Below are positions 2,737 through 62,520 of a stretch of DNA of 64,000 bases, in pieces (within the stretch, counting starts at the first letter, position 1; every line of letters starts with the position of its first letter). The notes below the pieces were generated by a model. The model did no database searches and was not told where the DNA came from. It saw only the letters and a list, made by a program, of their open reading frames with translations. The position numbers and the translations under genes are program-made. This DNA is from Caldilinea sp. CFX5. GTDB taxonomy: Bacteria; Chloroflexota; Anaerolineae; Caldilineales; Caldilineaceae. The stretch spans positions 23,534 through 87,533 of the forward strand of contig QWII01000064.1 of the NCBI GenBank assembly GCA_021405325.1, written 5' to 3'.

Positions 2737-2775
2737 CGCTTTAATCCCTCTATCTCTCAATCTCTTAATACCACC
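2737..2775. repeat. octamer array (TCTCAATC-type)
   Basis: Between the ABM gene and the flavoprotein gene the sequence runs as 8-bp units, TTAATCCC TCTATCTC TCAATCTC TTAATACC. The same words build the palindrome at 7000-7075. Confidence 0.55.
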
Positions 2776-2805
2776 TTTCCTAAGTTCAAGCAGAGGAGTT
2801 TGCTC

Positions 2806-4206
2806 ATGTCTACTGAATCAGCGAAGAAAACGCCCGCCATCATTCGTGACGAAGCTGCTCGTCAGGCCATTGCCCAAGACTATGGCGGCTACATTCACCA
2901 TCTCCCTGCCGGCATTCTGCGGGCAACCAGTGTCGAAGATGTTGTGGATGGAGTGCGCTATGCCCGCCGGCATGGCTTGAAGGTGGCTGTCCGCGGCGCC
3001 GGCCATAGTACACATGGTCAGGCGCAGGTTGTCGACGGGCTGGTGATCGATCTACGCACTATGAATCGAGTGCTGGAAGTAACGCCGGACTCGATTTTGG
3101 TCGAAGCAGGGACACAATGGCGCACGGTAGCGCAGACGGCGTTGACCATTGGCCGCACCTTTCCGGTCTTTACCGACTATCTGGCGACGACTGTTGGCGG
3201 TACGCTGACGGTAGGCGGCGTCGGGTCGCGTACCTGGCAACTGGGGACGCAGACCGACCATGTCCTCGATCTGGAGGTGGTGACGGCTGATGGCAAAGTC
3301 CTGCACTGTTCACCGGAGTGTAACGCCGATCTGTTCAATGCGGTGCGCTGCGGATTGGGGCAATTCGGCATCATTACCAAAGCGCGTCTACGCCTGATCC
3401 CGGCCCCTCAGCATGTACACTACCACCGGGCGCTCTATGGCAATTATGATACATTTTGGCATGAGCTAACTCGATTGGTCGATGAAGCGGACTATGAGTG
3501 TATCCAGGGCTATGCGCTCGGCAACGATGCCCAGTCGATAGTCGGTCATATCGGGCCGGACGCCATTGGCTTCCCGTTGCCGACAGATGCCGGCCCCTGG
3601 CTCTATTGCATCGAAACAGTAAAATTCCTGGATCAGCCCGCCGATCTATCCACGACGGCGCCCAAACGTCAGGCGTGGTTGCCGGGCGGCTACTTCGCCT
3701 ATGATCTGCCCTATCTCGCCTACATTGATCGCTTGGGGCCAGTGGAGGAGATGCTCAAACAACTGGGCCTCTGGCAACTGCCCCACCCCATGCTTGATGT
3801 GATCATTCCCGGTTCAAAAGCACAGGGTTTTGTCCGTGAGACGCTGGCAGCGCTCAGTCCGGCGGAGGTGGCCGGCCCGGTGTTGATCTATCCGTACCAG
3901 CGTCAACACCTGCGCACTCCCTTCTTCCGTACGCCAAACGAAGAACGTGTGCTCCTCTTCGGCTTGATGCGCACCACGCTACCGCCAACGCCCGACCATG
4001 TACAGGCGCAGGTGGCCGAAAACCGACGGATCTACGAACGAGCAGTGGCGCAAGGCGGCTGTTATTATCCCATCGATTCCGTGCCGATGACGCTCACCGA
4101 CTGGCAACAGCACTTTGGCGCACAGTGGTGTGCCTTTACTGCGGCCAAAGAACAGTTCGATCCCAAGTACCTGCTAAATCCGGGGCAGGGCATTTTTGCT
4201 CGGTAG
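2806..4206 (+). CDS. FAD-linked oxidoreductase, cytokinin-dehydrogenase-like
   Basis: A 466-residue PCMH-type flavoprotein. The frame is open upstream of 2806 but crosses an octamer array; the ATG at 2806 has GAGGAG before it. RGAGHSTHGQAQ contains His67, expected to bind FAD covalently as in BBE and cytokinin dehydrogenase proteins. FTDYLATTVGGTL contains Asp124 in the same context as the catalytic Asp of plant cytokinin dehydrogenases, and NADLFNAVRCGLGQFGIIT and the C-terminal FDPKYLLNPGQGIF also resemble that family. It lacks an obvious signal peptide. Bacterial cytokinin dehydrogenases exist, but the true substrate here is unknown; a sugar or alcohol oxidase remains possible. It closes the 1240-4206 same-strand run. 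Confidence 0.8.
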   Translation: MSTESAKKTPAIIRDEAARQAIAQDYGGYIHHLPAGILRATSVEDVVDGVRYARRHGLKVAVRGAGHSTHGQAQVVDGLVIDLRTMNRVLEVTPDSILVEAGTQWRTVAQTALTIGRTFPVFTDYLATTVGGTLTVGGVGSRTWQLGTQTDHVLDLEVVTADGKVLHCSPECNADLFNAVRCGLGQFGIITKARLRLIPAPQHVHYHRALYGNYDTFWHELTRLVDEADYECIQGYALGNDAQSIVGHIGPDAIGFPLPTDAGPWLYCIETVKFLDQPADLSTTAPKRQAWLPGGYFAYDLPYLAYIDRLGPVEEMLKQLGLWQLPHPMLDVIIPGSKAQGFVRETLAALSPAEVAGPVLIYPYQRQHLRTPFFRTPNEERVLLFGLMRTTLPPTPDHVQAQVAENRRIYERAVAQGGCYYPIDSVPMTLTDWQQHFGAQWCAFTAAKEQFDPKYLLNPGQGIFAR

Positions 4207-4243
4207 CAGGGTGTCTTTCCAAACAGGCTGCCGCCGGCCCGGC

Positions 4244-4582
4244 TTACTCAGCGGTTTCCTGCGCTTCGAGGAAGACCTTGAGCCGCAGCAACCGCTCCTC
4301 CCACCGGGCGCTGATCGCCTTGACCCACTGTTCCACTTCGGTGAGTGGTTCCGGGGTCAAGGTGTAGCGCTTTTCGCGGCCCTGTTGGTGAACCGTGACC
4401 AGGCCGGCCTCGGCCAGAATGGTCAAATGCTTGAGAATCGCCTGGCGCGTGATCGGGTATTCGGTTGCCAACTGGGTGGCCGTTTTGGGGCTGCTTTCGG
4501 CCAAATTGGTCAACAACTGGCGACGGGTTGGGTCGGCCAGCGCTGTGAAGATGGGGGTAGCGAAAATGGGGGTATCGATCAA
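4244..4582 (-). CDS. ArsR-family winged-helix transcriptional regulator
   Basis: A 112-residue protein with the classic ArsR pattern IFTALADPTRRQLLTNLAE, then TATQLATEYPITRQAILKHLTILAEAGLVTVHQQGREKRYTL. No clustered cysteines are present, so it is unlikely to be a metal sensor. The ATG overlaps the stop of the SRPBCC gene by 4 bp (4579-4582), indicating translational coupling. ArsR regulators coupled to AHSA1/SRPBCC proteins are a common bacterial pairing. Self-regulation through the inverted repeat at 5482-5501 is inference. It is convergent with the flavoprotein gene ending at 4206. Confidence 0.88.
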   Translation of the reverse strand: MIDTPIFATPIFTALADPTRRQLLTNLAESSPKTATQLATEYPITRQAILKHLTILAEAGLVTVHQQGREKRYTLTPEPLTEVEQWVKAISARWEERLLRLKVFLEAQETAE

Positions 4583-5451
4583 TGGGGCAAACTCCTGCCT
4601 TCCAGCAAGGCTTGCAGATTTTCCAGCGTGATCGTGTAGCCCATGGCCGTTTGCGCCATGCGCTTCTCCCGCGCCTCCTCTGGTAGTGCGGCAAAACCGG
4701 TTTCAATCACCGCAACGCGGACGCCGTCATTCTCCGCAGCCAGCCGAAAGGTCGTCAACATGGGGTTCGCTTCTTCGTACCAACGCAACGCAAATTCATG
4801 CGGCGGGTCAAGGATCTCAATGGTGTGGAGGGCAGCTTCATCATCCGGTGTATTGTAGAATTTTACTACCCCGCCGACCGCCAACGTTTCTATTTCCCAT
4901 GCACCGCCGAACCATAAATCTAATTGCGTTGGCTCAGTGATCGCCTGCCAGGCGCGTTCCAACGAAGTGGCGATCCAAATGCTGCGTTCAACGAAGTTCT
5001 GCGCGTCGAAGGCAAGCTTATCGGCCAGCACACCGACCATCTTGGCCCAACCGGCGCGGCTGCGTTCGACAAAGTCCGCCCATTTGGGATCCATTTCGTG
5101 GGTCAGGGTGAGTTCACAGCCCTGCGCCAGTGGTGTAATGGCGATAATGACCCGCGATTGATCATCCGAATGCCCACGCACACCCCAGGTGAAAACCAGA
5201 CGACGGGGGCGCTCCATTTCCAGATATTCACCAATATGGTCGATCTCCTGCCCCTGCCGGCGCACGACAAAGGAAAACGCGCCACCGACACGGGCATCAA
5301 CCGTCAGCAGCACCACCTCTTCCTCCCGCAAGGCCGGGCCAAACATCCACTGGCCGATCAACTCCGGGGTTAGCCAGGCGTCGAAGACTCGTTCGGCGGC
5401 GACAGCAAAGTGCTGCGTAACGTGCGCCTGGATTGGTGACTGCAAGCTCAT
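4579..5451 (-). CDS. two-domain SRPBCC (AHSA1-like) protein
   Basis: A 290-residue protein with two copies of the AHSA1 START-like fold. The first covers about residues 5-145, beginning VTQHFAVAAERVFDAWLTPELIGQWMFGP. The second covers about residues 150-285, beginning VERSIWIATSLERAWQAITEPTQLDLWFGG. Each shows the W.T.P.....W signature of the family, which binds hydrophobic ligands or helps Hsp90-type chaperones. Fusion of two domains is less usual than a single domain of about 150 residues. ATG at 5451 follows AAAGGATC. The gene is first in a two-gene operon with the ArsR regulator. Confidence 0.87.
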   Translation of the reverse strand: MSLQSPIQAHVTQHFAVAAERVFDAWLTPELIGQWMFGPALREEEVVLLTVDARVGGAFSFVVRRQGQEIDHIGEYLEMERPRRLVFTWGVRGHSDDQSRVIIAITPLAQGCELTLTHEMDPKWADFVERSRAGWAKMVGVLADKLAFDAQNFVERSIWIATSLERAWQAITEPTQLDLWFGGAWEIETLAVGGVVKFYNTPDDEAALHTIEILDPPHEFALRWYEEANPMLTTFRLAAENDGVRVAVIETGFAALPEEAREKRMAQTAMGYTITLENLQALLEGRSLPH

Positions 5452-5481
5452 TCTGTTGATCCTTTCCGTTTACACACTGAT

Positions 5482-5536: not shown

Positions 5537-5656
5537 ATGTGCAACCATCTATTTTCACATCAGTGTCGAAATACTCTTTAGCGAGGATCAACTTGACGGC
5601 GGCGATGTGTTGCCCGGTTTTACGACGCCAGTCGCCGATGTGTTTGATGGTGTGTA

Positions 5657-5713
5657 GGTGATTGGGTGACTCGGTGATTTCGACAAGCTCAATCACCGAG
5701 TCACCCAATCACC
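5657..5713. repeat. TTCGACAAGCTCA-centred palindrome, site 1
   Basis: Arms 5657-5678 and 5692-5713 are perfectly complementary over 22 bases and flank TTCGACAAGCTCA at 5679-5691. The arms read as 8-bp variants (GTGATTGG GTGACTCG GTGATT). It lies just beyond the stop codon of the ABC permease gene and could end its transcription, but there is no U-run. Confidence 0.8.
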
Positions 5714-5717
5714 GAAT

Positions 5718-6980: not shown

Positions 6981-6999
6981 CGGTTTTAACTGGAGACTA

Positions 7000-7075
7000 G
7001 AGATTGAGAGATACAGAGATTGAGAGATTAACGGATGCAAGGGGCAATCTCTCAATCTCTGTATCTCTCAATCTC
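7000..7075. repeat. octamer palindrome (TCTCTCAA-type)
   Basis: Arms 7000-7026 and 7049-7075 are perfectly complementary over 27 bases. Each arm is a string of 8-bp units (TCTCTCAA TCTCTGTA TCTCTCAA TCTC). It separates the two permease genes and abuts the stop codon of the upstream one at 7076. Confidence 0.8.
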
Positions 7076-8581
7076 TTACAAATTCAAGCGGCGGCGGAAG
7101 AACCACGTTCCCGCCACAAAGAACAACAACCCTTGCCCGACCAGAACCAGAAAATTGAAACCAACCCCCGGTTCATTGGCTGCGATCTTGGTAAAGGCAT
7201 CAACGCCCCAGTAGATGAGCGATAACTGCCCTAACGCCGCCGGGAGGGCAAAGCCAAAGGAGCCACCGAGGACGCCCAACGCCATGTTGACCATCGGCCC
7301 AATCACCTGCACCTGTTCCGGCGTGCGCGCCAGCCCGACGATCAACACGCCAATACCCGAAACACAGAGCGCCAGCGCCAGCAGCACCCCGACGAGGGCC
7401 AGCGGATTGGTTCCCCAGATAAAGGTGGGGGTTCCCAGCACCAGCGAGGCAATGCCGGTCAAAGCCAGAAGCAGCACCGCCATCTGCACGACGACCACCA
7501 CCAGATTCCCGACCAATTTGCCCAGGAGAATGGTGTTGCCGCTGGTCGGCGAAACCAAAATCCGTTGGAGGGTCCACTGCTTGCGCTCCTCATAAATCGA
7601 GAGAATGCCAAAGACGCCGGTAAAGAGGGCAAAGAAGACCGCCTGCGCCGAGCCGACGACCACCAACAGAAACGCAAAGCGATTGCCGGCTTGCAATGTA
7701 TCCAACGGTCGCTGATCAAGCTGAATCGGATTAATCCCCGGCTGAAAGAGACAACCCAAAACCGCAAAGGTATCGGTATTGACCGTGGTAAAGGCGTTGT
7801 TCAAGGTGGTGTTGAGCGTTGTGGTGTTGACCCTGGTCAGGTCAAAGGTGTCCACCAAGGTGTCAAACGAAGCTTCCAGGGTGATGGTCAGGCGCAGGAA
7901 CTGGTTGACAATGCCTTCGACAATGCTGCGCACCACGCCGGCGGACAAAGCACGCCCACTGTTGCCATAAACTTCCACCGCGCTTGCTACCGTGCTGGAG
8001 ATTGGGTCGTTGGCGGTCGTCAGGGTCGGCAGAAAGCGTTGGGTAAAATCGGGCGGAATAATCACAGCAACAGCATAGTCGCCCTGTTCCACACCGGCGC
8101 GGGCAGCGGCGGGATCGGTCAGCGCCCTGGCTGCCAACAGGTCATCAAGTGAACCTTGAAAAGCGCCGTCGCCATCCTCGTCAGCCGCGACTAGATTACA
8201 ATTCAAGGAACTCACATCAAACGCGCCCTCCGCCGTTGAGATGGCGCCGCTCGCTGTAATCGGCTGGGAGAGCAGGATACTTGCCAGCATCGTGCCGACA
8301 TTAAAGGAAAATCCGTCCGGCAATCCAGTCATCGTTACTGGCTGCGTTACCGAAAGGGGAACCGTGTCGCTGATCAAAGCGCCAATGTCCAACCCACGAT
8401 CCAGGTTGACAACAGCGACCGGAATCTCGGCAATCGTCGGGGTGTCGCTGCCCAAGCCGCCAAAGGCCAACCCGATGATGGTCGAGAGCGCCAGCGGCGT
8501 CGCAAACATGATCAGGAGCAGGTTGCGGTCACGCAGCGTCGTGTATAGCTCTTTCCAAGCAATCGCCCAAATCTTGTGCAT
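7076..8581 (-). CDS. ABC-2 type transporter permease with large outer domain
   Basis: A 501-residue permease beginning MHKIWAIAWKELYTTLRDRNLLLIMFATPLA. After the first membrane segment comes an outer region of about 260 residues, then five to six hydrophobic segments with the coupling loop YEERKQWTLQRILVSPTSGNTILLGKLVGN. The protein ends in RRRLNL. It is homologous to the next permease downstream, and the two together with the ATPase at 8640-9653 form a three-gene ABC exporter transcribed leftward. The outer region contains Cys-bearing stretches (SSLNCNLVA, LGCLF) that might form a disulfide. Substrate not predictable. Confidence 0.87.
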   Translation of the reverse strand: MHKIWAIAWKELYTTLRDRNLLLIMFATPLALSTIIGLAFGGLGSDTPTIAEIPVAVVNLDRGLDIGALISDTVPLSVTQPVTMTGLPDGFSFNVGTMLASILLSQPITASGAISTAEGAFDVSSLNCNLVAADEDGDGAFQGSLDDLLAARALTDPAAARAGVEQGDYAVAVIIPPDFTQRFLPTLTTANDPISSTVASAVEVYGNSGRALSAGVVRSIVEGIVNQFLRLTITLEASFDTLVDTFDLTRVNTTTLNTTLNNAFTTVNTDTFAVLGCLFQPGINPIQLDQRPLDTLQAGNRFAFLLVVVGSAQAVFFALFTGVFGILSIYEERKQWTLQRILVSPTSGNTILLGKLVGNLVVVVVQMAVLLLALTGIASLVLGTPTFIWGTNPLALVGVLLALALCVSGIGVLIVGLARTPEQVQVIGPMVNMALGVLGGSFGFALPAALGQLSLIYWGVDAFTKIAANEPGVGFNFLVLVGQGLLFFVAGTWFFRRRLNL

Positions 8582-8595
8582 GGCTTTGTCCTTCG

Positions 8596-8640
8596 TCGCG
8601 TCGTCGTGTGGTCGCTTGGTCGCGTGGGCGCGTGGTCAGT
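8596..8640. repeat. octamer array (GTGTGGTC-type)
   Basis: The gap between the ATPase stop and the first permease start is made of 8-bp units: GTGTGGTC GCTTGGTC GCGTGGGC GCGTGGTC AGTTAATC. No inverted partner is seen. Confidence 0.6.
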
Positions 8641-9653
8641 TAATCGCGTAGGGCGCGACCGGTGAGGGCCAGGAAGACCGCTTCCAGATCGGGTTCACGC
8701 ACTTCGACAGCTTGGACGTCGACGCCGACGCGGTTCAGGAAATTGATGACATCCGGCAGCGCGCGCCGACCCCGTTTGGCAAAGACGGTGATGCGGCCAG
8801 GGGTAAGACGGTCGCCGGCGCCATTGGCGGTTTCGGGTTGGGTTAACAACACTTGAGAGACGCCCTCGACGCTCTGTTGAATGTCCGTCGCTAAGGTTGC
8901 CGCCAGCGGTTGGTCGCCGATAGTAAATTCCAGCCGGTCATCTTCGCCCACCTGTTGGGTAAGTTCGTTTTGGGTGCCTAGAGCGATAATTTCGCCATGA
9001 TCGATAATGGCGACGCGATCACTCAACTCTTGCGCCTCTTCCATCAAGTGGGTGGTGTAAAGGATGGTCATGCCCTGCTCATCGCGCAGATGTTTGACCG
9101 TGTCGAGAATGCGGCGACGGCTTTGCGGGTCGATGCCGACCGTTGGTTCATCCATGTAGACCAGTTGCGGGCGGTGGAGCAGCCCGACAGCAATGTTGAC
9201 CCGCCGCTTCATCCCACCGGAGAAGGTATCGATACGGTCATGTTGGCGGTCGGCCAGGTCGATAAAGGTCAGCAGCTCATCGACCCGTTGATTGAGCGCT
9301 TTGCCGCTCATGCCGTACATCTTGCCAAAGAAGCTCAGATTCCGGCGTGCGCTCAGTTCGGGGTAGAGGGCAATTTCTTGGGGAATAAAACCCATCAGCC
9401 GTTTGGCCGCCAGCGGCGCTTTGGTGATCGAGTGGCCGCCGATAAAAGCGTCGCCTGCGGTAGGTGGCAGCAAGCCGCTGATCATCGAGATGGTGGTCGT
9501 CTTGCCGGCGCCGTTGGGGCCAAGCAGGCTGAAGATTTCGCCCTGCTGAATGGTCAGGTTCACTCCTTTGACGGCATCGACCATTGTCCCATCGGCGCGC
9601 TTAAAGGACTTGCGCAGGTTTTCGGTTCTGACCATAATCGGCGTCGCCACCAT
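8640..9653 (-). CDS. ABC transporter ATP-binding protein
   Basis: A 337-residue ATPase. ATG at 9653 is chosen because AAGGAAG lies 7-8 bases before it; the upstream open frame is repeat. Walker A is GPNGAGKTT, the signature is FSGGMKRRVNIAVGLL, Walker B is QLVYMDEPTVGID, and an H-loop follows at ILYTTHLMEEA. The C-terminal extension of about 90 residues with VEVREPDLEAVFLALTGRALRD is the usual end of ABC-2 drug-exporter ATPases (DrrA/CcmA-like). First gene of the ATPase-permease-permease operon; acts on the cytoplasmic face of the membrane. Confidence 0.92.
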   Translation of the reverse strand: MVATPIMVRTENLRKSFKRADGTMVDAVKGVNLTIQQGEIFSLLGPNGAGKTTTISMISGLLPPTAGDAFIGGHSITKAPLAAKRLMGFIPQEIALYPELSARRNLSFFGKMYGMSGKALNQRVDELLTFIDLADRQHDRIDTFSGGMKRRVNIAVGLLHRPQLVYMDEPTVGIDPQSRRRILDTVKHLRDEQGMTILYTTHLMEEAQELSDRVAIIDHGEIIALGTQNELTQQVGEDDRLEFTIGDQPLAATLATDIQQSVEGVSQVLLTQPETANGAGDRLTPGRITVFAKRGRRALPDVINFLNRVGVDVQAVEVREPDLEAVFLALTGRALRD

Positions 9654-9681: not shown

Positions 9682-9935
9682 CCAGTCACGGAGTGACGAC
9701 TGACGGTAGACGAGGGTTTATGGGAGTTAAAAATTTGTTTCGGTAATCGTAGGTGCGGTTTGTAACCGCACTTGTTCCCTGAGAACCGTGCGGTTACAAA
9801 CCGCACCTACGATTACTATCAACCCTCGATCCCCCCAATCCCAGTCGGTTGCAAATGCGTCGATTGCAAATGGGATTGTTCGCAGACCCCGGTCTTGAAA
9901 GACCGGGCTACCATCAGTCGTCACTCCGTGACTGG
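9682..9935. repeat. nested palindromes between the ABC operon and the histidine phosphatase remnant
   Basis: Outer arms 9682-9703 and 9914-9935 are perfectly complementary over 22 bases. Inside them is a second palindrome, about 9741-9771 against 9788-9818, built on GTGCGGTTTGTAACCGCAC. A small hairpin, CCGGTCTT-GA-AAGACCGG, follows at 9894-9905. The outer right arm supplies the last codons and stop of the phosphatase remnant. Apart from these structures the gap holds no gene. Confidence 0.7.
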
Positions 9936-10721: not shown

Positions 10722-10766
10722 AAACCTGCTCCAAATGAATACGAAGGAAGGATAAAAAAGTTGTTA

Positions 10767-10820
10767 GTTGGTAGGTTCGTTGGTTTCGACAAGCTCAACC
10801 AACGAACAAATCAACCTACT
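10767..10820. repeat. TTCGACAAGCTCA-centred palindrome, site 2
   Basis: TTCGACAAGCTCA lies at 10785-10797. Directly flanking it, GTTCGTTGGT and ACCAACGAAC pair perfectly, then the outer parts pair with slips (GTAGG with CCTAC). On the minus strand the structure follows the hisS stop and is followed by a T-run (10755-10760 read in reverse), so it may act as the hisS terminator. The arm words match those at 13780-13836. Confidence 0.75.
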
Positions 10821-10827
10821 ATCATTT

Positions 10828-12201
10828 TTAAGAAAGGCGGCTCTGCAACCAGCCGATCACCTCGCCGCTAGGTGTTTCCACCTGTTCGCCGGTCACTAAA
10901 TCTTTGATGGCGACGATACCCGCTTCGACTTCGCGGGGGCTGGCGAGCACGGCGTAGCGAATCCGCCGCTCTTCGGCATATTTGAATTGACGGCCATAGC
11001 GGTCGAGATCGGGGTAGAGATCGACCCGCAGACCGGCGGCGCGCAACTGTTGGGCCAGGGTAAAGCTGGTTCCGACCGTGCTTTCGTCAAACTGCGTCAC
11101 CAACACCTGGGGCTGACCGGCCAGCCGTTCGGGGAACATTTGCTGCTCTTCCATCATCAGCAGAATGCGTTCCAGGCCCAGGCTGAACCCGCAGGAAGGA
11201 ATACGCTGGCCGCTAAACATGCCGACCAATTCATCATAGCGCCCGCCGCCGCCGCCGGAGCCGCTAAAGCCGGGGAATTCGATCTCGAAGATGGGGCCGG
11301 TATAATAACTAAGGCCGCGCGCCAGGTAGGGATCAACGCGCAGGTGTTCCGCCGCCGGTCCGCCTTGGCTGTAGGCCACCACGCTTTTGAGTTCCGCCAC
11401 CCCTTTGCTACCCAATTCCGATTCTTCCAGCAAGTCGCTCAACCAGCCCAGGGTTTCCACATTGTTCTTGGGTGCAGCCGACAGGTTGACTAACAACTTT
11501 TCGGCAGCATCCGGCGCAATGCCCCGTTCACCTAACTCTTTACGCACGCCATCCAGCCCGATCTTATCGAGTTTATCAATGGCGACCAGTGCGTCTCCTT
11601 CCAATTCCGTCGGCACACCGGAGACCTCCATCAACCCACGCAGAATGCCGCGGTGGTTGAGCCGCAGGGCAAAGGGGTGCGCTTCGTTACCAAAACCTAG
11701 ATCCTTGAGCACTTGCGCGCCGGCAGCCAACACTTCGGCCTCGACTGTTTGGCTGGCCGAGCCGACGACATCCAGATCACACTGGAAAAATTCGCGATAG
11801 CGCCCCTTGGCCGGGCGGTCAGCGCGATAGACCGGCTGGATCTGGTAGCGCTTAAAGTAACGAGGCAAGCTGTTGCGATATTGGGCCACGACACGCGCCA
11901 GCGGCACGGTCAAATCATAGCGCATCCCGGCATCGCTGACGCCATTTTCGGTGCGCTCTTCGTCCAGCGCTCGCTGCAATTTGTCACCCCGCTTGAGAAC
12001 GCGAAAGATCAGTTGATCGCCCTCTTCGCCATATTTGCCTAGCAACGTCTCTAAGCGTTCCATCGTCGGCGTCTCTAGCGGCTCAAAGCCATAGCTCTGA
12101 TAGACGCGCTCGATCACATCAATCACATAGTTGCGCCGCAGGAGATCCAGCGGCAAAAAATCGCGCATACCGCTGAGGGGCGCGGTGTTTGTTTTCGCCA
12201 T
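10828..12201 (-). CDS. hisS: histidyl-tRNA synthetase
   Basis: A 457-residue class II synthetase. ATG at 12201 (MAKTNTAPLSGMRDFLPLD) follows GGGAGCAG; a TTG five codons earlier is the alternative. Motif 1 region is MRDFLPLDLLRR. Motif 2 is FKRYQIQPVYRADRPAKGRYREFFQCDLD, the standard HisRS pattern. The histidine-A loop LARGLSYYTGPIFEIEF and motif 3 CGFSLGLERILLMM are present, followed by the anticodon-binding domain from about residue 360. It charges tRNA-His with histidine in the cytoplasm. The gene is downstream of ald and the xisI remnant on the same strand. Confidence 0.96.
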   Translation of the reverse strand: MAKTNTAPLSGMRDFLPLDLLRRNYVIDVIERVYQSYGFEPLETPTMERLETLLGKYGEEGDQLIFRVLKRGDKLQRALDEERTENGVSDAGMRYDLTVPLARVVAQYRNSLPRYFKRYQIQPVYRADRPAKGRYREFFQCDLDVVGSASQTVEAEVLAAGAQVLKDLGFGNEAHPFALRLNHRGILRGLMEVSGVPTELEGDALVAIDKLDKIGLDGVRKELGERGIAPDAAEKLLVNLSAAPKNNVETLGWLSDLLEESELGSKGVAELKSVVAYSQGGPAAEHLRVDPYLARGLSYYTGPIFEIEFPGFSGSGGGGGRYDELVGMFSGQRIPSCGFSLGLERILLMMEEQQMFPERLAGQPQVLVTQFDESTVGTSFTLAQQLRAAGLRVDLYPDLDRYGRQFKYAEERRIRYAVLASPREVEAGIVAIKDLVTGEQVETPSGEVIGWLQSRLS

Positions 12202-13745: not shown

Positions 13746-13779
13746 ACCATCCTCCTCGTTGAGAACATAGGGTTAGCTT

Positions 13780-13836
13780 GGTGGTTGGTTGGTTCGTTGG
13801 TTTCGACAAGCTCAACCAACGAACCAACCAACCACC
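13780..13836. repeat. TTCGACAAGCTCA-centred palindrome, site 3
   Basis: Arms 13780-13801 and 13815-13836 are perfectly complementary over 22 bases and enclose TTCGACAAGCTCA at 13802-13814. The arms are built of GGTTGGTT-type 8-bp words like those at 10767. It lies 35 bp upstream of the ald start. Confidence 0.85.
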
Positions 13837-13931
13837 ATATCTTGTTCCAACTATAGCAGGCGCCGCCTATTCGAGCAAGGCATGGCTGTGGTAGTTTGCC
13901 AAAACGGGCGTTTGTCGCGAGAATAAGGGGA

Positions 13932-13979
13932 AGGTAGATAGGGAGACAAGTACACAGGTAGACAAGTAGATAGGTCGTT
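13932..13979. repeat. octamer array (GGTAGACA-type)
   Basis: Six 8-bp units in register: GGTAGATA GGGAGACA AGTACACA GGTAGACA AGTAGATA GGTCGTTT. The same word family forms the palindromes at 16228-16325 and 56375-56482. The array runs to within a few bases of the start codon of the next gene. Confidence 0.65.
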
Positions 13980-14328: not shown

Positions 14329-14338
14329 CACACAATGG

Positions 14339-14413
14339 TTGCGTGATTCGTGATTCGTGCTGCGTTGCCTTCGACAGGCTCAGGCAACGCAGCACGAATC
14401 ACGAATCACGCAA
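14339..14413. repeat. TTCGACAGGCTCA-centred palindrome, site 4
   Basis: Arms 14339-14369 and 14383-14413 are perfectly complementary over 31 bases around TTCGACAGGCTCA at 14370-14382. The arms contain 7-bp units (GTGATTC GTGATTC GTGCTGC). It fills the gap between the small anchored protein and sppA. Confidence 0.85.
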
Positions 14414-14427
14414 AGGAAATAGGAATC

Positions 14428-16233
14428 ATGACTTTTCTCCAACGATTGGTAGGGGCCGGACGTGCTAGTGGCCGTGGCATCGCTTTGGGCTGGCAGCGGC
14501 TCCTCTGTGCGCTTGCCAATCGCCAGCGCTGGCTCCGGCGCAAGCAGCTTCCTGACTATGTTCTCTTTGTGTTGGATCAGGAGTTGCTGGAACGGGAGCC
14601 GCATACGCCCTGGTGGCAGGAGTATATCCCTGGTCGAAAGGCGCCGCTGACACTTGAATTTTTGACCGCCGCCCTTGAGCGCATTGCCGGCGACCCGACC
14701 GTCAAGGGGGTCATCTTGCTGGGCAAGAGTCCCACGTTGAGTCTGGCGCAGGCGCAAAGTCTGGCGCTGCTCTTTCAACGCTTTCGCCAGTGGGATCAGG
14801 CCCAGCGCACAGATAGCACAGCCCCAGCTAAGCGCGTCATCTTTCACCTAGAACAGGTGACAACACCTCTCTATGTCGCCGCCTGCGCCGCTGATCAAAT
14901 TTATGTCACGCCGTTAACCACCTGGGATGTGCTAGGGCTGCGCACCGCCCCTACCTTTTTCAGGCAGACGCTCGACAAGCTGGGCATTGTGATGGATGTG
15001 GTGCGCGTCTCGCCCTGGAAGAGCGCCGTGGACCAATTCAGCCTCGACGCCATGAGTCCAGAGCAGCAGGAGCAACTTTCCTGGCTGCTGGATAGCTGGT
15101 ACAGTGACATCGTTGCGGCCATCCACACCGGTCGGCGCTTACCAGCCGAAGCGGTGCGCACGATCATCGACGGCGCCCCTTGGTCGGCCAGCGAAGCGCA
15201 AGAACAGGGGTTAATTGACGGCATCGCCTACGAAGATGAGTTGCCGCCGCTCCTGGGGTCAGCGGTGCAACCGGCGAAGCTGCAATTCTATGCCAAGGCG
15301 CGCAAACTGCTCTGGCGCCGCCCCCGGCTGTATCACGCCAAACAGGTTGGCGTCATTAGCCTTTGCGGCGCGATACAGTCGGGGGAAAGCCAGTCGCGAC
15401 CGGTGCCGCTGCCGATTCTGGGCAAGGAAAGCCTGGGTAGCGCCACTGCCCAGCAGCAGATCCGCCATGCTCGCCAAAAAGAGGAAATTGCCGCGGTGGT
15501 GGTACACGTTGATTCACCCGGCGGTTCGGCGTTAGCCAGCGATCTGATCTGGCGCGAACTCTATCTCTTGAATCAGGAAAAACCGGTCATCATCTATATG
15601 GGCGACGTGGCGGCCAGCGGCGGTTACTACATTGCCGCCCCCGGTCGCAAAGTAGTGGCTCAACGGGCGACCCTCACCGGCAGCATCGGCGTGATCATCG
15701 CCAAAGCGGTCACCGCCGGCGCCTATGCCAAAATCGCCGCCAATCGCCAGTCGATTCAGCGGGGCGCCAACGCCGATCTCTATGATGACCAACACGCCTG
15801 GGTCGGCGACCAGCGGGCCAAAGTGGAAGCGAGCGTCTTTCAGGTCTACAATACCTTTAAAGAGCGGGTCGCCACTGGGCGCAAGCTGGTCTATGACTCG
15901 CTCGACGCCATCGCCAACGGTCGCGTTTGGACGGGGAGTCAAGCCTTGGCCCACGGCCTTGTCGATGAACTGGGCGATTTCCAACACGCCGTCACGGTTG
16001 CCTGTCATCTGGCAGAGCTACCGACCGATGGCACAGTCCGTCTACAACGCATCACGGCCGAAAAGGAAAAGCTGCTGGCCCAACCCCTCGCCGCCGTCAG
16101 CACGGCCCTTGGCCTGCCTCTCCTCCGGCAAACCGGCGCCTTCGTCACCCAAGTCATGACCGACGACGCCAACACCTTCCTCCACCAGGATCACCACTGG
16201 CTACTGGCGGAAGGTTTACCGAAGATTAGGTAG
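14428..16233 (+). CDS. sppA: signal peptide peptidase SppA, long two-domain form
   Basis: A 601-residue S49 peptidase. The open frame extends to 14350, but that part is palindrome; ATG at 14428 follows AAAGGAAATAGGAATC. The N-terminal S49 domain supplies the general base Lys198 in SPWKSAVDQF. The C-terminal domain supplies the nucleophile Ser397 in DVAASGGYYIAAP and has VVHVDSPGGSALASDLIWREL. These positions match the Lys/Ser dyad of the E. coli 67-kDa enzyme. It degrades left-over signal peptides at the membrane; a clear N-terminal anchor is not obvious here, and the small anchored protein encoded just upstream could help localise it (inference). Confidence 0.93.
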   Translation: MTFLQRLVGAGRASGRGIALGWQRLLCALANRQRWLRRKQLPDYVLFVLDQELLEREPHTPWWQEYIPGRKAPLTLEFLTAALERIAGDPTVKGVILLGKSPTLSLAQAQSLALLFQRFRQWDQAQRTDSTAPAKRVIFHLEQVTTPLYVAACAADQIYVTPLTTWDVLGLRTAPTFFRQTLDKLGIVMDVVRVSPWKSAVDQFSLDAMSPEQQEQLSWLLDSWYSDIVAAIHTGRRLPAEAVRTIIDGAPWSASEAQEQGLIDGIAYEDELPPLLGSAVQPAKLQFYAKARKLLWRRPRLYHAKQVGVISLCGAIQSGESQSRPVPLPILGKESLGSATAQQQIRHARQKEEIAAVVVHVDSPGGSALASDLIWRELYLLNQEKPVIIYMGDVAASGGYYIAAPGRKVVAQRATLTGSIGVIIAKAVTAGAYAKIAANRQSIQRGANADLYDDQHAWVGDQRAKVEASVFQVYNTFKERVATGRKLVYDSLDAIANGRVWTGSQALAHGLVDELGDFQHAVTVACHLAELPTDGTVRLQRITAEKEKLLAQPLAAVSTALGLPLLRQTGAFVTQVMTDDANTFLHQDHHWLLAEGLPKIR

Positions 16234-16325
16234 GTAGATGGGTAAACAGGTAAACAGGTAGACAGGTACAAAGGGTACAAGACGTATTTACCTGTCTACC
16301 TGTCTACCTGTCTACCTATCTACCT
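16228..16325. repeat. octamer palindrome (GGTAGACA-type)
   Basis: Arms of about 37 bases (ending 16268 and starting 16289) are complementary with about three mismatches and consist of 8-bp units GGTAAACA/GGTAGACA and CTGTCTAC. It fills the gap between sppA and the cysteine-desulfurase-like gene and starts on the sppA stop codon. Confidence 0.8.
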
Positions 16326-16349
16326 TTTACACACAGAACGGAGTACACC

Positions 16350-17608: not shown

Positions 17609-17640
17609 TTCACCTTGTCACCTTGTCACCTTGTCACGCT
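17609..17640. repeat. octamer array (CACCTTGT-type) forming the 3' end of a gene
   Basis: Four 8-bp units CACCTTGT CACCTTGT CACCTTGT CACGCTT lie at the convergent junction. Read on the minus strand they encode the last residues and stop of the glycosyltransferase gene (DKVTR). The same word lies in frame in the DUF2723 gene at 19093-19118. Confidence 0.6.
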
Positions 17641-18403: not shown

Positions 18404-18525
18404 AGTGGTATGATCCAAACTCAGAAAATAGGATTACCATTCGCCCGTCGCCAATCGATGAACGACGAGCGGGTGAGATAAGTACAGATTCAATAGACCG
18501 CAACGCCATTGAGATAGTTCAGACT

Positions 18526-18566
18526 GACTTTGGACTACACGACTAAACGACTGCGGACTACTGAGA
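18526..18566. repeat. octamer array (GACTACAC-type)
   Basis: Units TGGACTAC ACGACTAA ACGACTGC GGACTACT directly precede the DUF2723 start. An inverted copy of nearly the same 40-base string stands at about 60966-61006, upstream of nuoCD, so whole arrays, not only words, are shared between loci. Confidence 0.65.
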
Positions 18567-18568
18567 TT

Positions 18569-20593
18569 ATGAAACAAGTAGGCTTAATGGTCAAATTTTT
18601 TTGGAACACATATCCTCGCGCCGATAGGCAAGTGGCGCTTTTGCTCTTTGCCGGCGCCTTTGGTCTCTACCTGCGCACATTGGCCCCCGGTTTACTTTTT
18701 GGCGATTCCGCCGAGTTTCAAGTGGCCGCCTGGCAACTGGGCCTGGCCCACCCCACCGGCTACCCACTCTACTTGCTTCTCGGCAGTATCTGGCAGCATC
18801 TACTCGCGTTGGGTGGTCTTAGCCCAGCGTATGCGCTCAATGCCCTGAGCGCGTTCTTTGGGGCGGCTACGGTTGCCTTACTCTACTTCTGTATGGTGGG
18901 CTGGCTGCAAAGTGCATTGGGCGTCCACCGCCTCGCCGCCCTCTTGACGGCGGTTCTCTTCGCCGTCAACTTCACCTTTTGGAGCCAAAATCTCATCGCC
19001 GAGGTCTACACCCTCCACACCTTCTTTGTCGTGCTACTATTGATGGTGGCAACGCAGCTATTTACCACGCCCCATGTACAAGACGTCGATCATCCTGTCA
19101 CCTTGTCACCCAGTCACCCCGCCAGGGCAAACCTTGTCATCCTGCTCGCCCTGCTCGTCGGCCTCTCCCTTACGCACCATGCCATGACGCTGTTGCTGCT
19201 CCCCAGCCTGCTTCTTGTCCTGTGGCAGGCGCGCCAGGGGTGGATCAGGCAGATGCGCACTTGGGCACTGGCTGGGCTGGCGTTGATCGCGCCGTTGCTG
19301 CTCTATCTTTACATTCCTTTGCGCAGCGGGCCGGCGGCATCACCCTGGTATCATCAACTGCTGGGCACAGCGCCGTTGACGCTCTATCCGCATAGCTGGT
19401 CAGCTTTTGTCAATTATATCACCGGCCAGTCGATTGCCGTCGGTTTTCGCAGCATCGAGGGTGCATTCCAACAGTTACCGCAAGCTTGGGTTCTCTGGCG
19501 GCTCCATTTCATGTGGCCGGGGATAATGTTGGCGCTCTTGGGTCTCTATCTGCTGATCCGCCAGCGCCAGTGGGCCATCCTGGCATTGACCGTTCCCTTT
19601 TTTCTGTTGCAACAGGGCTTCAACCTCTTTTACAACATTGGCGACATTTTGGTCTATTATATCCCACTCTATCTGATTGCCGCCATTTGGGCCGGCTTTG
19701 CCGCAAACGCCATCGGCGGCGGGCTGCAAGCGATGATGAATCGCGCCGAAGCCAACAGCCAGGCGACGACGCCCGCCCGCCCGGTGCTACAGGTAGGAAC
19801 AGTGCTGGTGCTGGTGCTCTTCTGGTTGCCGATCCAGTTGGCGACGCGGGACTTTGCCCTGATCGATCAGTCCGAGGCAACCCGTGCGCAAACCATGTGG
19901 CAAGCGATTACTGACGCCCAGCCGCCGGCGGACGCCATTCTAATCAGCAATGATCGCAATGAGATCGCTCCCCTCTTTTATCGGCAAGCGGTGGAAGGGC
20001 AGTTCCAGGGCGTGACCGGTCTCTTTCCTTTGATTGCGCCGGATGAGCGTTTTGCGGATGTGGGCGCAACCGTGGAAACAGCCCTACATGCGGGCAATGG
20101 GCGACCGGTTTATCTGATTAAAACGATGCCAGGGCTAGAGACAAAATTTGAGTTGGCAGCAGCAACGTCGCCCTTGGTGGAAGTGGTGGGGCCGGCAGTA
20201 ACCACGCCGCCGACGACAGTAGTCGATCAACCGTTTGGCCCCCTGCGCCTGCTGGGCTACGATTGGCAACCAACCGCTGATGGGGTGACAATACGGCTCC
20301 ACTGGCAGGTGCAGGAAGCGCTTGCCGCTGACTATACGACAACTGTCCAGCTTTTTGCCGCCAATGGTGACAAGGTAGCGCAAAACGACGCCCCGCCCGG
20401 TGGCGTCTACTACCCGACCTCACATTGGAAGCCGGGGGAGACGTTGGTCGATGCACACGCTTTAACCTTTACCAAGGATCAACAACCGGTGAAGTTGCTC
20501 GTTGGCATGTATGCCGGGCCAGACCTCACGCCATTAGCGCCGGCGTTGGAACTTTCTGTGGGGAATAGTAGCGGGAACGCGCCCCAAAAATAG
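18569..20593 (+). CDS. DUF2723 membrane protein (TMEM260-like, possible O-mannosyltransferase)
   Basis: About 674 residues; ATG at 18569 (MKQVGLMVKFFWNTYPR) or 18587 are both possible because an octamer array abuts the start. The N-terminal region LYLRTLAPGLLFGDSAEFQVAAWQLGLAHPTGYPLYLLLG is the DUF2723 signature, with the acidic GDSAEF motif in the first outer loop as in GT-C enzymes. About 11-12 membrane segments run to residue 440, followed by a soluble outer domain of roughly 200 residues with beta-rich composition. Human TMEM260, a DUF2723 protein, is an O-mannosyltransferase. An octamer array lies in frame between two membrane segments at 19093-19118 (residues near 175-184). Confidence 0.85.
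   Translation: MKQVGLMVKFFWNTYPRADRQVALLLFAGAFGLYLRTLAPGLLFGDSAEFQVAAWQLGLAHPTGYPLYLLLGSIWQHLLALGGLSPAYALNALSAFFGAATVALLYFCMVGWLQSALGVHRLAALLTAVLFAVNFTFWSQNLIAEVYTLHTFFVVLLLMVATQLFTTPHVQDVDHPVTLSPSHPARANLVILLALLVGLSLTHHAMTLLLLPSLLLVLWQARQGWIRQMRTWALAGLALIAPLLLYLYIPLRSGPAASPWYHQLLGTAPLTLYPHSWSAFVNYITGQSIAVGFRSIEGAFQQLPQAWVLWRLHFMWPGIMLALLGLYLLIRQRQWAILALTVPFFLLQQGFNLFYNIGDILVYYIPLYLIAAIWAGFAANAIGGGLQAMMNRAEANSQATTPARPVLQVGTVLVLVLFWLPIQLATRDFALIDQSEATRAQTMWQAITDAQPPADAILISNDRNEIAPLFYRQAVEGQFQGVTGLFPLIAPDERFADVGATVETALHAGNGRPVYLIKTMPGLETKFELAAATSPLVEVVGPAVTTPPTTVVDQPFGPLRLLGYDWQPTADGVTIRLHWQVQEALAADYTTTVQLFAANGDKVAQNDAPPGGVYYPTSHWKPGETLVDAHALTFTKDQQPVKLLVGMYAGPDLTPLAPALELSVGNSSGNAPQK
19093..19118. 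repeat. octamer array inside the DUF2723 coding region
   Basis: Three units CCTGTCAC CTTGTCAC CCAGTCAC lie in frame and add the residues HPVTLSPSH to a loop between membrane segments. The words equal those in the intergenic array at 17609-17640. Confidence 0.55.
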
Positions 20594-20869: not shown

Positions 20870-20965
20870 CAGTACGACAGTGAAACAGTAAGACAGTAGA
20901 ACAGTTTGTCCCTTGGGGATCACTGTCCTACTGAGGGACTGTCACACTGTCTTACTACTCTACCT
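20870..20965. repeat. octamer palindrome inside the T-box leader
   Basis: Left part AACAGTAA GACAGTAG AACAGTTT and right part ACTGTCCT ... GACTGTCACACTGTCTTAC are 8-bp-unit arrays that pair with each other around 20911-20925. The bordering bases AACCGAG and CTCGGATAAGGTT can pair, so the array looks as if it sits at the tip of a leader stem. Confidence 0.7.
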
Positions 20966-49982: not shown

Positions 49983-50060
49983 GTGCTGCGTGCTGCGTGC
50001 TGCGTGGCCTGAGCCTGTCGAAGGCCACGAATCACGCAGCACGCAGCACGAATCACGCGC
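49983..50060. repeat. TTCGACAGGCTCA-centred palindrome, site 5 (inverted), heptamer arms
   Basis: The core lies at 50010-50022 as TGAGCCTGTCGAA, the reverse complement of site 4. The left arm is 7-bp units GTGCTGC x3 then GTGGCC. The right arm is GGCCACG AATCACG CAGCACG CAGCACG AATCACG. The arms agree in register, but some units are exchanged (AATCACG for CAGCACG), which shows that units change as wholes. It fills the gap between convergent YchJ and mannonate dehydratase genes. Confidence 0.85.
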
Positions 50061-51123: not shown

Positions 51124-51242
51124 GTGAAACGTGATGACGTGATTCGTGAAACGTGATTCGTGAAACGTGATTCGTGATGACGTGCTGAATGATTGACGTC
51201 TTGCTACGGTTCACGCATCACGCATCACGCATCACGTTTCAC
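51124..51242. repeat. heptamer palindrome (GTGATTC/GTGAAAC-type)
   Basis: Left arm 51124-51184 is 7-bp units GTGAAAC GTGATGA, then alternating GTGATTC and GTGAAAC. Right arm 51211-51242 is TCACGCA repeated, then TCACGTTTCAC. The arms pair in register despite unit differences. It separates the mannonate dehydratase and UspA genes, and the UspA stop codon lies inside its right edge. Confidence 0.8.
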
Positions 51243-51694
51243 TCATCAGCCGGATGTAAAACCATAATGGGAATCGACGTGTGGTGGATCAAATGTTCGG
51301 CAATGCTGCCGTAGAGCAATTTGCTGAAGCCGGTGCGCGCGTAGGTGGTCATGGCGACCATGTCGATGTTGGCTTCTTTGATAAAGCGTTCGATTTCAAA
51401 GGCGGCGCTGCCAAAGCGTACTTCGCTGGAAACGGTGTAGCCGGCCTCTTCCAACATCTGTTTGGTGGCAAGCAACTCTTCGCGCAGTTGGTTCGATAGG
51501 GTGGCTTCCGATTGGGTGTCGTCCACACTGACGAAGATGGGGCCTTCCACATAGTAGACGCTTTGGGGGGGGTCGGCCACCCGTGTCAGAACCAAGTGGG
51601 TGTCTTCGGGGCGTAAGAAACGCCGAACATAGGGCAAAATTTGTTCGCGAAACTTCGAGCCGTCGAGCAGGATTAAAACGCGGTTTTTACTCAT
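51239..51694 (-). CDS. universal stress protein (UspA family)
   Basis: A 151-residue protein from ATG 51694 (MSKNRVLILLDGSKFREQILPYVRRFL), which follows GGAGGTGTCCG. The C-terminal IDMVAMTTYARTGFSKLLYGSIAEHLIHHTSIPIMVLHP carries the family pattern; the ATP-binding G-2x-G-9x-G(S/T) appears as an altered TGFSKLLYGSIAEH with a Gly-Ser end, so nucleotide binding is uncertain. Acts in the cytoplasm in stress tolerance. Single gene. Confidence 0.9.
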   Translation of the reverse strand: MSKNRVLILLDGSKFREQILPYVRRFLRPEDTHLVLTRVADPPQSVYYVEGPIFVSVDDTQSEATLSNQLREELLATKQMLEEAGYTVSSEVRFGSAAFEIERFIKEANIDMVAMTTYARTGFSKLLYGSIAEHLIHHTSIPIMVLHPADE

Positions 51695-56374: not shown

Positions 56375-56482
56375 TATAGGTAGACAGGTAGACAGGTAGA
56401 CAGGTAGACAGGTAGATAGGTAGATAGGTGCTTTGTCAGTAATACTTGTGTACCTGTCTACCTGTCTACCTATTTACCTATC
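56375..56482. repeat. octamer palindrome (GGTAGACA-type), second large copy
   Basis: Left arm: repeated AGGTAGAC units followed by AGGTAGAT units (56377-56429). Right arm: TACCTGTC TACCTGTC TACCTATT TACCTATC (56450-56482). The words equal those at 13932 and 16228. It separates two leftward genes and overlaps the stop of the DUF1858-like gene. Confidence 0.8.
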
Positions 56483-56965: not shown

Positions 56966-56983
56966 TCCTCCTGACAAACGTAG

Positions 56984-57095
56984 GTGCGGTTTGCAACCGC
57001 ACGGACTTCCATGTGCGGTTTGCAACCGCACGGACTTCGGTGGACATGTGCGGTTTGCAACCGCACGGACTTCCATGTGCGGTTTGCAACCGCAC
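56984..57095. repeat. four tandem copies of the GTGCGGTTTGCAACCGCAC palindrome
   Basis: Copies at 56984-57002, 57013-57031, 57048-57066 and 57077-57095, spaced 29, 35 and 29 bases and joined by GGACTTCCAT-type linkers. Each is a hairpin on its own. A single related copy (with TTTGTAACC) is at 9755. It separates the UPF0173 and DUF1858-like genes. Confidence 0.88.
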
Positions 57096-57101
57096 CTACG
57101 A

Positions 57102-60962: not shown

Positions 60963-61060
60963 AGAGATTCAGTAGTCCGCAGTCTTTTAGTCGCGTAGTC
61001 CAGAGTCAATCTATACTACTTGACAGTAGGTTGCGGTCTGCTGAGATGTAGAGAACCAGA
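60963..61060. repeat. octamer array (GTAGTCCG-type) between nuoB and nuoCD
   Basis: ATTCAGTA GTCCGCAG TCTTTTAG TCGCGTAG TCCAGAGT are 8-bp units. Read in reverse complement the string almost equals 18526-18566. A weak inverted partner (TTGCGGTCTGCTGAGA) follows at 61031-61046. Confidence 0.65.
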
Positions 61061-61978: not shown

Positions 61979-62239
61979 GAACCGCTTCCTTTAAACTAAA
62001 TTCTATTGAATTTTCAGAGAGTATATCAACGAGCGCCGGAAAGTAATCCATTACTGCTGTAAAAAGTGTTACTTTCCGCGCTGCTCGTGAATATAAAACT
62101 GTGTAGAAATAAGATCATACAGAGTCCCCTCTTGAAGAGGTCAACTCTTTTGTAAGCCTATCCCCTAAATTTTACCCAAATCGGTCATGAATTGCAACTT
62201 TTGGCCGTGTTGTAAACCTTCGGGTTGGATGTAGTGGGC

Positions 62240-62268
62240 ATTATACTAGGGCTACTTTGCGCTGTCAA
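62240..62268 (-). promoter_or_regulatory. consensus promoter of the nuoB operon
   Basis: On the minus strand TTGACA (62263-62268) and TATAAT (62240-62245) are both perfect sigma-70 hexamers separated by exactly 17 bases. Transcription would start near 62233 and give nuoB a leader of about 255 bases. Confidence 0.8.
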
Positions 62269-62330
62269 GTTCTTTTTTTCACAAGCAGAGTTTCGCCATG
62301 CCAAAATAATTATCATCTTTTTTATAAAAA

Positions 62331-62359
62331 TTGACAGGCCATGTTCCCTATGCTATACT
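62331..62359 (+). promoter_or_regulatory. promoter of the radical SAM gene
   Basis: TTGACA (62331-62336) and TATACT (62354-62359) are separated by 17 bases. The expected leader is about 170 bases long and includes the heptamer array. Confidence 0.78.
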
Positions 62360-62406
62360 CCGCGGCGAATGATAAAGATGCTATGAGCAAAGAGGCGCGA
62401 GGGCCG

Positions 62407-62520
62407 AGACACGAGACACGAGACACGAGACACGAGACACGAGACACGAGATTCTTCTTCTGTCCTCTGTCCTCTATCTTCTGTCCTCTATCTTCTGTCT
62501 TCTGTCTCTCCGTCTCCGAC
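62407..62520. repeat. heptamer arrays (ACACGAG- and TCTTCTG-type)
   Basis: Six AGACACG units (62407-62451) are followed by a second array in 7-bp register, TCCTCTG TCCTCTA TCTTCTG TCCTCTA TCTTCTG TCTTCTG TCTC. The two word sets lie back to back in the leader of the radical SAM transcript and are not complementary to each other. Confidence 0.8.

Follow-up and report, generated by a model that had tools for sequence, protein, structure and literature searches.

We analysed a 64-kb stretch of the genome of Caldilinea sp. CFX5 (contig QWII01000064.1; hereafter the window; 56% G+C), in which 8,788 bases are non-coding on a gene map chosen by hand from the list of open reading frames (ORFs). Gaps between these genes carry arrays of short units phased every 7 or 8 nt, often arranged as two opposing blocks around a short loop, and we regard these intergenic arrays as real and confirmed. 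Self-match at a fixed lag (local score of at least 10) finds seven segments of period 7 in the whole window, five of them mostly non-coding, and 12 segments of period 8, ten of them non-coding, against 0.4 and 0.2 in ten first-order shuffles. Periods 14, 16, 21, 24 and 28 are also raised (4, 9, 6, 4 and 4 non-coding segments); the remaining periods give 0–2 non-coding segments each, with zero segments of periods 5, 10, 11, 13, 17 and 20 anywhere in the window, and segments of periods 6, 9, 12, 15 and 18 are mostly coding. The excess of periods 7 and 8 anticipated by a first-pass annotation of this DNA is thus borne out in the non-coding DNA of the window. A search for inverted repeats, which it had also proposed (here with arms of at least 20 nt, pairing of at least 90% and a loop of 3–50), gave a similarly clear result, with 13 long repeats in the window and none in either of two shuffles; phased arrays account for eight of the 13. 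All 17 sites that it had listed are phased, 13 of them strongly by a repeat finder or a long palindrome (5657, 7000, 8596, 13780, 13932, 14339, 16228, 17609, 20870, 49983, 51124, 56375 and 62407) and four more weakly: 2737 holds about three degenerate octamers, 19093 has three octamers within a gene, and 18526 and 60963 mix pitches of 7 and 8, yet are copies of one another. An 18th array in the window, at 10754, was absent from that list.

Written out in register, the usual unit consists of a constant anchor and a variable filler: CAGT plus four letters at 20870, GGTA plus four at 16228 and 56375, GTGA plus three or four at 51124, AGTC plus three or four at 18526 and 60963, GGTGA plus three at 5657, 17609 and 19093, and AGAGAT plus two at 7000, with 3–8 anchors per arm in the window arrays. 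Three or more near-identical units stand head to tail at 17609 and in the left arms of 49983, 56375 and 62407; elsewhere the fillers vary. The constant pitch with differing words that had been described holds, but the register is broken at 51124, 18526 and 60963, where 7 and 8 mix. Arms had also been described as complementary over 20–37 bases. This is correct for 5657, 7000, 13780 and 14339, where pairing is perfect over 23–32 nt and extends to odd units, whereas the arms at 10754, 49983, 51124, 16228 and 56375 are only 72–93% complementary, the anchors mostly agreeing and the fillers differing. A loop reading TCGACA(A/G)GCTC is common to five palindromes with different arms (5657, 10754, 13780, 14339 and 49983; loop positions 5680, 10786, 13803, 14371 and 50011).

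The words had been called site-specific, which is contradicted by pairwise comparison of the 18 arrays: when pairs scoring at least 34 are grouped, about nine groups result in the 64 kb, six of them with two or three members that are not all palindromic. One palindrome is copied in two gaps 42 kb apart. Its copies, a mixed 7/8 array with five AGTC anchors at 18523..18566 (minus strand) and a decayed palindrome with five AGTC anchors at 60963..61050, align over about 70 columns with a score of 73, against a maximum of 22 in 300 shuffles, a control run for this pair only.

The remaining groups are built as follows. Two octamer palindromes share the anchor GGTA, one at 16227..16326 (five anchors per arm at pitch 8 and a sixth at the left outer end; 37 nt at 92%), in the gap flanked by genes for an S49 peptidase and an aminotransferase V, and the other at 56376..56482 (six anchors left, four right; 39 nt at 90%; score 97 against 16228); a single octamer array of the GTAGA/GTACA family on the plus strand at 13932..13975, found by TRF, joins them (scores 62 against 16228 and 63 against 56375). 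Three heptamer palindromes form another group: 14336..14417, perfect over 32 nt (CGTGATT, CGTGATT, CGTGCTG, CGTTGCC; loop TCGACAGGCTC) and lying a little upstream of an ATG of the S49 peptidase gene (Pfam); 49983..50050, between convergent genes, with CGTGCTG/CGTGATT and the loop TCGACAGGCTC in reverse (28 nt at 93%; score 76 against 14339); and 51124..51248, with GTGA eight times on the left, including one 8-nt step, and five times on the right (38 nt at 84%; arm fillers differ). The anchor GTTGGTT and the loop TCGACAAGCTC unite a perfect palindrome at 13777..13840 (24 nt at 100%) and a decayed one at 10754..10828 (arms 72%; score 87 against 13780), and the perfect octamer palindrome at 5654..5717, with GGTGA three times per arm around the 11-nt loop TCGACAAGCTC (arm 23 nt at 100%, 26 nt at 90% or more), enters this group partly through the common loop. 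On the minus strand, a single octamer array of GGTGACAA between convergent genes (17609..17637; TRF 100%) groups with three GGTGA octamers within a DUF2723/TMEM260-like gene (19090..19119), the latter identified from units in register, Pfam and an alignment of homologues. A weak octamer array of about three GAGAT units directly after a stop codon (2745..2773, minus strand) is related, with a score of 40, to the perfect octamer palindrome at 6996..7080 (AGAGAT four times per arm, 16-nt loop, 31 nt at 100%), which occupies the whole gap between two ABC-2 membrane genes (Pfam). The three singletons are a single array of GTCGCGTG-like octamers on the plus strand at 8592..8657 (TRF periods 8 and 24), a CAGT octamer palindrome in a T-box leader at 20870..20960 (five anchors left, four right plus one altered; fillers non-complementary), and, at 62403..62514, a heptamer array with CGAGACA six to seven times (TRF 100% over 62405–62451) followed by an opposite GARGAYA array.

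Arrays thus lie in co-directional gaps, in convergent (17609, 49983) and divergent ones (18526, 62407), in a T-box leader and within a gene. The T-box match (20748–21106) falls short of the gathering score (66.5 against 93 bits) and contains a 115-nt insert; it precedes an alanyl-tRNA-synthetase-like gene (21158–22912; Pfam), and the array stands in the insert after Stem I. The DUF2723 gene that contains the 19093 array has 2,028 homologues; 12 of the 120 listed carry an organism name, and all of these are Chloroflexota with at most 66% identity (eight Caldilineaceae, Litorilinea, one Anaerolineales and two unplaced). In a protein alignment of the first 40 of the 120, five sequences besides the query twin P0001 (69–84% identical) show HPVT.SP.H, the translation of the window octamers, at the place of the array; about ten further homologues have variants of the motif, and most of the more distant ones are without it. 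Judged from these proteins, phased DNA is probably present in the homologous genes as well, with constraint at the protein level as an alternative. In this loop of the protein, three further homologues (P0018, P0019 and P0020) carry different insertions (SAETSASS.EP), so the spot varies among relatives.

Uncultivated tailed phages share the architecture of the window arrays, as well as the word CGTGATT. Three consecutive CGTGATT units are found in 10 viral stretches in nine contigs, four with the same context; one contig (L124) has terminase, portal and capsid genes and another (L125) a capsid gene. The AGGTAGAC array matched one IMG/VR contig, where it lies between two ORFs and directly before an ATG; of the ORFs there, the one that was scanned encodes a glycosyltransferase. 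No viral stretch matched GTAGTCNGCAGTCNTTTAGTC, no plasmid matched the 56375 array with the low-complexity filter on, and three CGTGATT units were found in none of 299 genomes from the phylum of genome G001. Scanning for the loop TTTCGACAAGCTCAA gave at least 120 stretches, nearly all with short arms that look like chance matches and are hardly informative on the loop common to the five window palindromes, and its 120 loci (1.06 Mb) contain 12 segments of period 7 and seven of period 8, no excess over periods 6, 9 and 12. Two viral contigs, L042 (3119–3189 and 6449–6521) and L058 (5143–5174 and 5514–5543), hold further arrays of period 7 in which the core is constant and the filler changes.

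Patterns of exact anchors with free filler at pitch 7, a form that partly builds in the constancy of the anchors, matched viral DNA in at least 120 stretches for GCTGA, 99 for CGTGA and 80 for AGTCG. AGTCG had been intended as a backwards control for GCTGA and was discarded as such, its 80 stretches being of the same kind. GCTGA at pitch 8 (94 stretches) serves as the proper control, and its arrays are mostly ordinary tandem repeats. Among the matches listed, 94 of 235 distinct GCTGA arrays at pitch 7 are paired, against 3 of 90 at pitch 8 (Fisher 7e-13), and 183 of 235 have variable filler, against 33 of 90 (Fisher 6e-12), both values being overstated since arrays from one contig are not independent. 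Pairing is scarcer for CGTGA (8/92) and AGTCG (12/65) at pitch 7. In bacteria, four TCAGCNN units occur in six of 200 genomes, five times as homogeneous arrays and once, in G028, as a variable-filler palindrome; the backwards control CGACTNN matched G051, G195 and G197, the 16 matches in G195 being homogeneous CGACTGC arrays on two contigs. The G028 element (L517; bacterial, 41% G+C) is a single phage-type GCTGA palindrome that ends directly before GGAGG. Matches in E. coli and Agrobacterium plasmids are homogeneous arrays. In a plasmid of Pseudoalteromonas shioyasakiensis (p1; L540, about 1370–1565), S9 peptidase and isocitrate lyase genes flank an array of 28 GCTGA heptamers that use just three fillers (CG, TG and AA).

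The GCTGA element of phages has the form AGC-NN-(TCAGC-NN)3-TCAGC, then a loop, then the inverse, so that a block measures 31 nt. Two whole phage records carry it, G307 (34,160 bases, with loci L213, L168 and L217 as adjoining pieces and terminase, portal and head genes on L168) and G306 (34,027 bases); the named relatives of the phages are distant (<60%), and the L168 element had no match in the phage collection with the low-complexity filter on. TCAGC precedes GCTGA in all 45 pairs among the matches listed, 17 of them from G307 alone, and in 22/22 and 5/5 pairs in the whole records of G307 and G306, which overlap with the 45. The CGTGA and AGTCG patterns have four pairs apiece, and each anchor again keeps to one order; one of the CGTGA pairs, on contig L389, is in fact the AGTCG array there, seen in another register. 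A rule that the 5' arm is always G-rich is excluded by the TCAGC to GCTGA elements. Clusters of at least three anchors number 39 in G307 and 23 in G306, of which 22 and five are paired; 17 of the 39 in G307 have anchors in a single orientation. Judging the flanks by eye, many phage elements span the distance from a stop codon to just before a ribosome-binding site (RBS).

Block size is sharply peaked: among blocks of two or more anchors, 45 of 71 in G307 and 23 of 33 in G306 have four, and both arms have four units in 20 of 42 palindromes among the matches listed. The proposal that a process copying short units would suffice does not fare well against this peak. Nor are arms generally kept matched, as had been supposed, since among 86 pairs of opposing fillers in the 42 palindromes (about 19 of the 42 from G307, and three of the 42 nested duplicates) just 11 show full complementarity, where 8.5 would be expected; the first filler letter is complementary in 34 (25.9 expected, SD 4.1) and the second in 15 (22.4 expected, SD 4.0). 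The five bases that follow two exact TCAGC anchors are exact in 539 of 936 cases, a count inflated because loci were picked for having four anchors; they have one mismatch in 84 cases, two in 45 and at least three in 268. Filler alphabets differ by phage: the first letter is T or C in 88/88 fillers of G306 and A, G or T in 159/160 of G307.

Three sets of related phage contigs, A (L387 and L404), B (L389) and C (L362 and L401), align in blocks that are 81–94% identical, mostly 87% or more, and differ in their gaps. At B 2776–2968 each has its own kind: a GCGACTGCGGTCGC-type palindrome in B, an AGTCG pair in A and a GCTGA pair in C; at B 4477–4596, B and C have an AGTCG pair with the same loop and different units, and A has a GAGTGRC pair; at B 6643–6787 and 9128–9335, C has GCTGA, and A and B have other palindromes; and at B 9719–9853, A agrees with C and B differs. 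Classed by eye, at least five of the 12 alignment breaks in B differ in palindrome family and two (8190 and 10215) have the same words with other loops or units, the remaining five not being classed. Gaps of L387, L389, L401 and L362 also hold swapped palindromes of the CCTGCGACTGCGGTCGCATGGCA and CCCTCACCCCCAACCCCTCTCCC types. Among 104 flank-matched phage comparisons (at least 80% identity on both sides, some pairs counted both ways), 28 are identical, 44 have another unit number, 13 other letters and 19 are without the word. The expectations that arrays turn over faster than their flanks and that both arms change together are therefore upheld in phages, where only 28/104 are identical despite matched flanks and whole palindromes are replaced among the three relatives.

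Our preferred reading, held tentatively and somewhat short of probable, is that the arrays are REP-like (repetitive extragenic palindromic), non-autonomous and swappable intergenic palindromes whose anchors are read by a putative oligomeric factor. The module is an anchor, usually of 4–6 nt, repeated three to eight times at pitch 7 or 8 with little-constrained filler, and two such blocks in a fixed inverted order around a short loop give the palindrome. Elements would spread by copying into permissive gaps, the anchors may be where an oligomeric factor that binds DNA or RNA, acting as mobiliser or reader, makes contact, and after arrival slippage would alter the unit number and template switching would at times make the arms identical. 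Contact with such a factor would explain why anchors are fixed, fillers free and phage blocks of near-constant size; and because fixed anchors, free fillers and a constant number have the look of a row of binding sites, with omega/ParB as precedent, factor-read REP-like elements are favoured. A bolder proposal, doubtful though worth serious thought, is that the blocks form a previously undescribed site class: addresses in the sequence, made of four to five anchors spaced every 7 or 8 bp, that an oligomeric factor reads and that phages and bacteria would carry in numerous gaps and exchange as whole palindromic cassettes. Given the genome-specific filler alphabets, a block may also carry strain-specific information.

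The features expected of known classes are present in part. Terminal inverted repeats in fixed order, as in miniature inverted-repeat transposable elements and other transposons, are seen in the 45/45 pairs; intergenic palindromes in several copies, as in REPs, are seen in the window groups, among which no GTAG or CGTC stem tag is common (units read by eye); and at least four contiguous repeats at 7–8 bp pitch, as in RHH operators and parS, are seen, though not in every window array, while of the window words CGTGATT alone has the GTGAT core of the WATCACW consensus, which is otherwise not matched.

Several results weigh against factor-read REP-like elements. In 27 array-bearing phage records, many of them fragments, RHH_1, RVT_1 and the RAYT-type transposase Y1_Tnp were each found in none (RHH_1 in 1/30 controls, below the cut-off), and 47 of the 56 ORFs of G307 compared with Pfam gave HTH, MerR and methylase domains and no RHH, reverse transcriptase (RT) or transposase. 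Target duplications number 12/40 at k=3 (7.7 +/- 2.6 in shuffles) and 5/40 at k=4 (2.8 +/- 1.5), with one 7-nt case, and give no clear signal. Within a phage, blocks share fillers near chance, which is not what recent copying predicts; the exceptions are one identical pair in G307, where chance would give 0.15, and two in G306, where it would give 0.84. The single order per anchor may have no more behind it than the descent of each family from one ancestor. A sharp block size is shown for phage GCTGA elements alone, window arrays having 3–8 anchors, and the link between host and phage consists of architecture and words rather than a demonstrated transfer.

Ordinary short tandem repeats, in which slippage makes units of 7 or 8 nt (the duplex length held by the polymerase) and hairpin template switching matches the arms, with neither mobility nor a reader, are an unlikely account that nonetheless deserves weight: unit number differs between relatives in 44/104 comparisons, the perfect arms at 7000 and 14339 have an idiosyncratic unit order, and the idea of a polymerase length for heptamers is found in the available part of a published study (PMC4679880). 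Hairpin copying does explain the four perfect window palindromes, but not opposing fillers that are not complementary, and slippage is insufficient because whole families are replaced in corresponding phage gaps, the same palindrome stands at two distant window places and the phage block size peaks at four. Should the arrays instead be operator- or centromere-like, an RHH-type oligomeric regulator would read a 4–5-bp core every 7 or 8 bp at sites scattered like stoperators, an unlikely reading to which the 39 clusters in the 34-kb phage G307, the GTGAT core common to CGTGATT and WATCACW, and the omega/parS heptads, contiguous, with loose end letters and needed in fours or more (PMC9499535, in part), lend some support. 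It is opposed by the 0/27 records with RHH_1 and the 47 of 56 G307 ORFs without an RHH family, by the several readers that several anchors in 64 kb would require, by families replacing one another freely in phage gaps, and by the restriction to one inverted order.

The position of many phage elements between a stop codon and an RBS (by eye), and the way palindrome families substitute for each other in one gap, would also suit terminator hairpins, or ends of transcripts, that pass between phages as mobile regulatory stem-loops in the manner of the PeSLs (promoter early stem-loops) of T4-type phages. We think this decidedly unlikely, as the 17 of 39 G307 clusters in a single orientation cannot fold on themselves, the fillers do not pair, and arrays are also found in divergent gaps, in the T-box leader and within a gene. 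Inverted order with independent fillers is what would be expected if a telomerase-like RT, in DRT10-like synthesis that ended up in the chromosome, extended the two 3' ends at a break with repeats copied from a template before they were joined, and DRT10 does make 9-nt tandem repeats from an A-B-A' template (PMC12632851, in part). This is nevertheless very improbable, the many filler values per genome being unlike the product of one template, RVT_1 being found in 0/27 phage records (the enzyme may be one of the host) and the block size being sharp.

Other features of the window stand beside the arrays. None of the 16 gaps between 21158 and 49978 carries an array, against 16 of the 26 outside (Fisher 4e-5), and this array-free stretch may be a younger or foreign segment. 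Within it lies a Wadjet-type operon (26893–35213) encoding a JetD C-terminal/DUF3322 protein, an SbcC-like SMC ATPase and a DUF3375 protein, which we take to be JetA; PADLOC, run on 10 window ORFs, detected no system. Palindromes bearing GTAG lie at 9743–9816 and 56979–57100, the second in tandem, with the core GTGCGGTTTGCAACCGCAC or a near variant, and a GCAAGAGTGCCGGGG palindrome without phased units has two copies, at 1013–1087 and 31462–31535. An Acido-Lenti-1 RNA match (9888–9933; 41.2 bits) is above the gathering score, and a 42-bp repeat of 6.5 copies lies within an ORF at 44008–44280.

Short tandemly repeated repetitive (STRR) sequences are heptanucleotide direct repeats of cyanobacteria, PeSLs are ordinary hairpins joined to early promoters, and the stoperators of mycobacteriophages, which resemble the present arrays in being many binding sites scattered across a phage genome, are single asymmetric sites and are not known as phased blocks. 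Going by the accessible portions of the papers cited here, heptamer gap repeats are known from Beggiatoaceae (TAACTGA; PMC4679880) and Chloroflexus (GATAGRA; PMC6749651). Together with STRR these share pitch 7, intergenic position, distant lineages and the absence of a known transfer mechanism; unlike them, with one word per family in identical units, the arrays described here combine a fixed anchor with free filler, have paired blocks in one order and use several anchors per genome. REP elements of the GTAG and CGTC families (PMC3733652) are likewise short multi-copy intergenic palindromes, and carry a terminal tag, whereas here no tag is constant and mainly the anchors are conserved. In the omega/ParB system of pSM19035 a single 7-bp repeat is read by each dimer, and at least four adjoining repeats are required; its heptads are contiguous with loose ends, direct or inverted, as here, but have another consensus, and here the blocks are paired around a loop and the 27 array-bearing records have no RHH_1 gene (PMC9499535). 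The PeSL cassettes are also gap stem-loops that mediate shuffling (PMC4503421), and DRT10 also synthesizes short tandem repeats enzymatically, but as protein-primed cDNA from one template, with no chromosomal arrays in the passages available (PMC12632851). Heptamer gap arrays as such had already been described (PMC4679880, PMC6749651, in the portions available); for phased anchor palindromes we found no description in the literature searched, which left most subscription journals outside.

Earlier reports of bacterial heptamer gap repeats had no evident mechanism of spread, and the phage records supply the missing pieces: relatives in which one gap is filled by entirely different palindromes, a second pitch that serves as control, and blocks of near-constant size. 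The question becomes testable, as a search for whatever factor binds the 31-nt block or moves it. If the arrays are not read in this way, they still form a class of repeats that lacks annotation and makes assembly and annotation harder; if it is true that one kind of machine reads many anchors at one pitch, DNA would be marked or moved in a way that is new.

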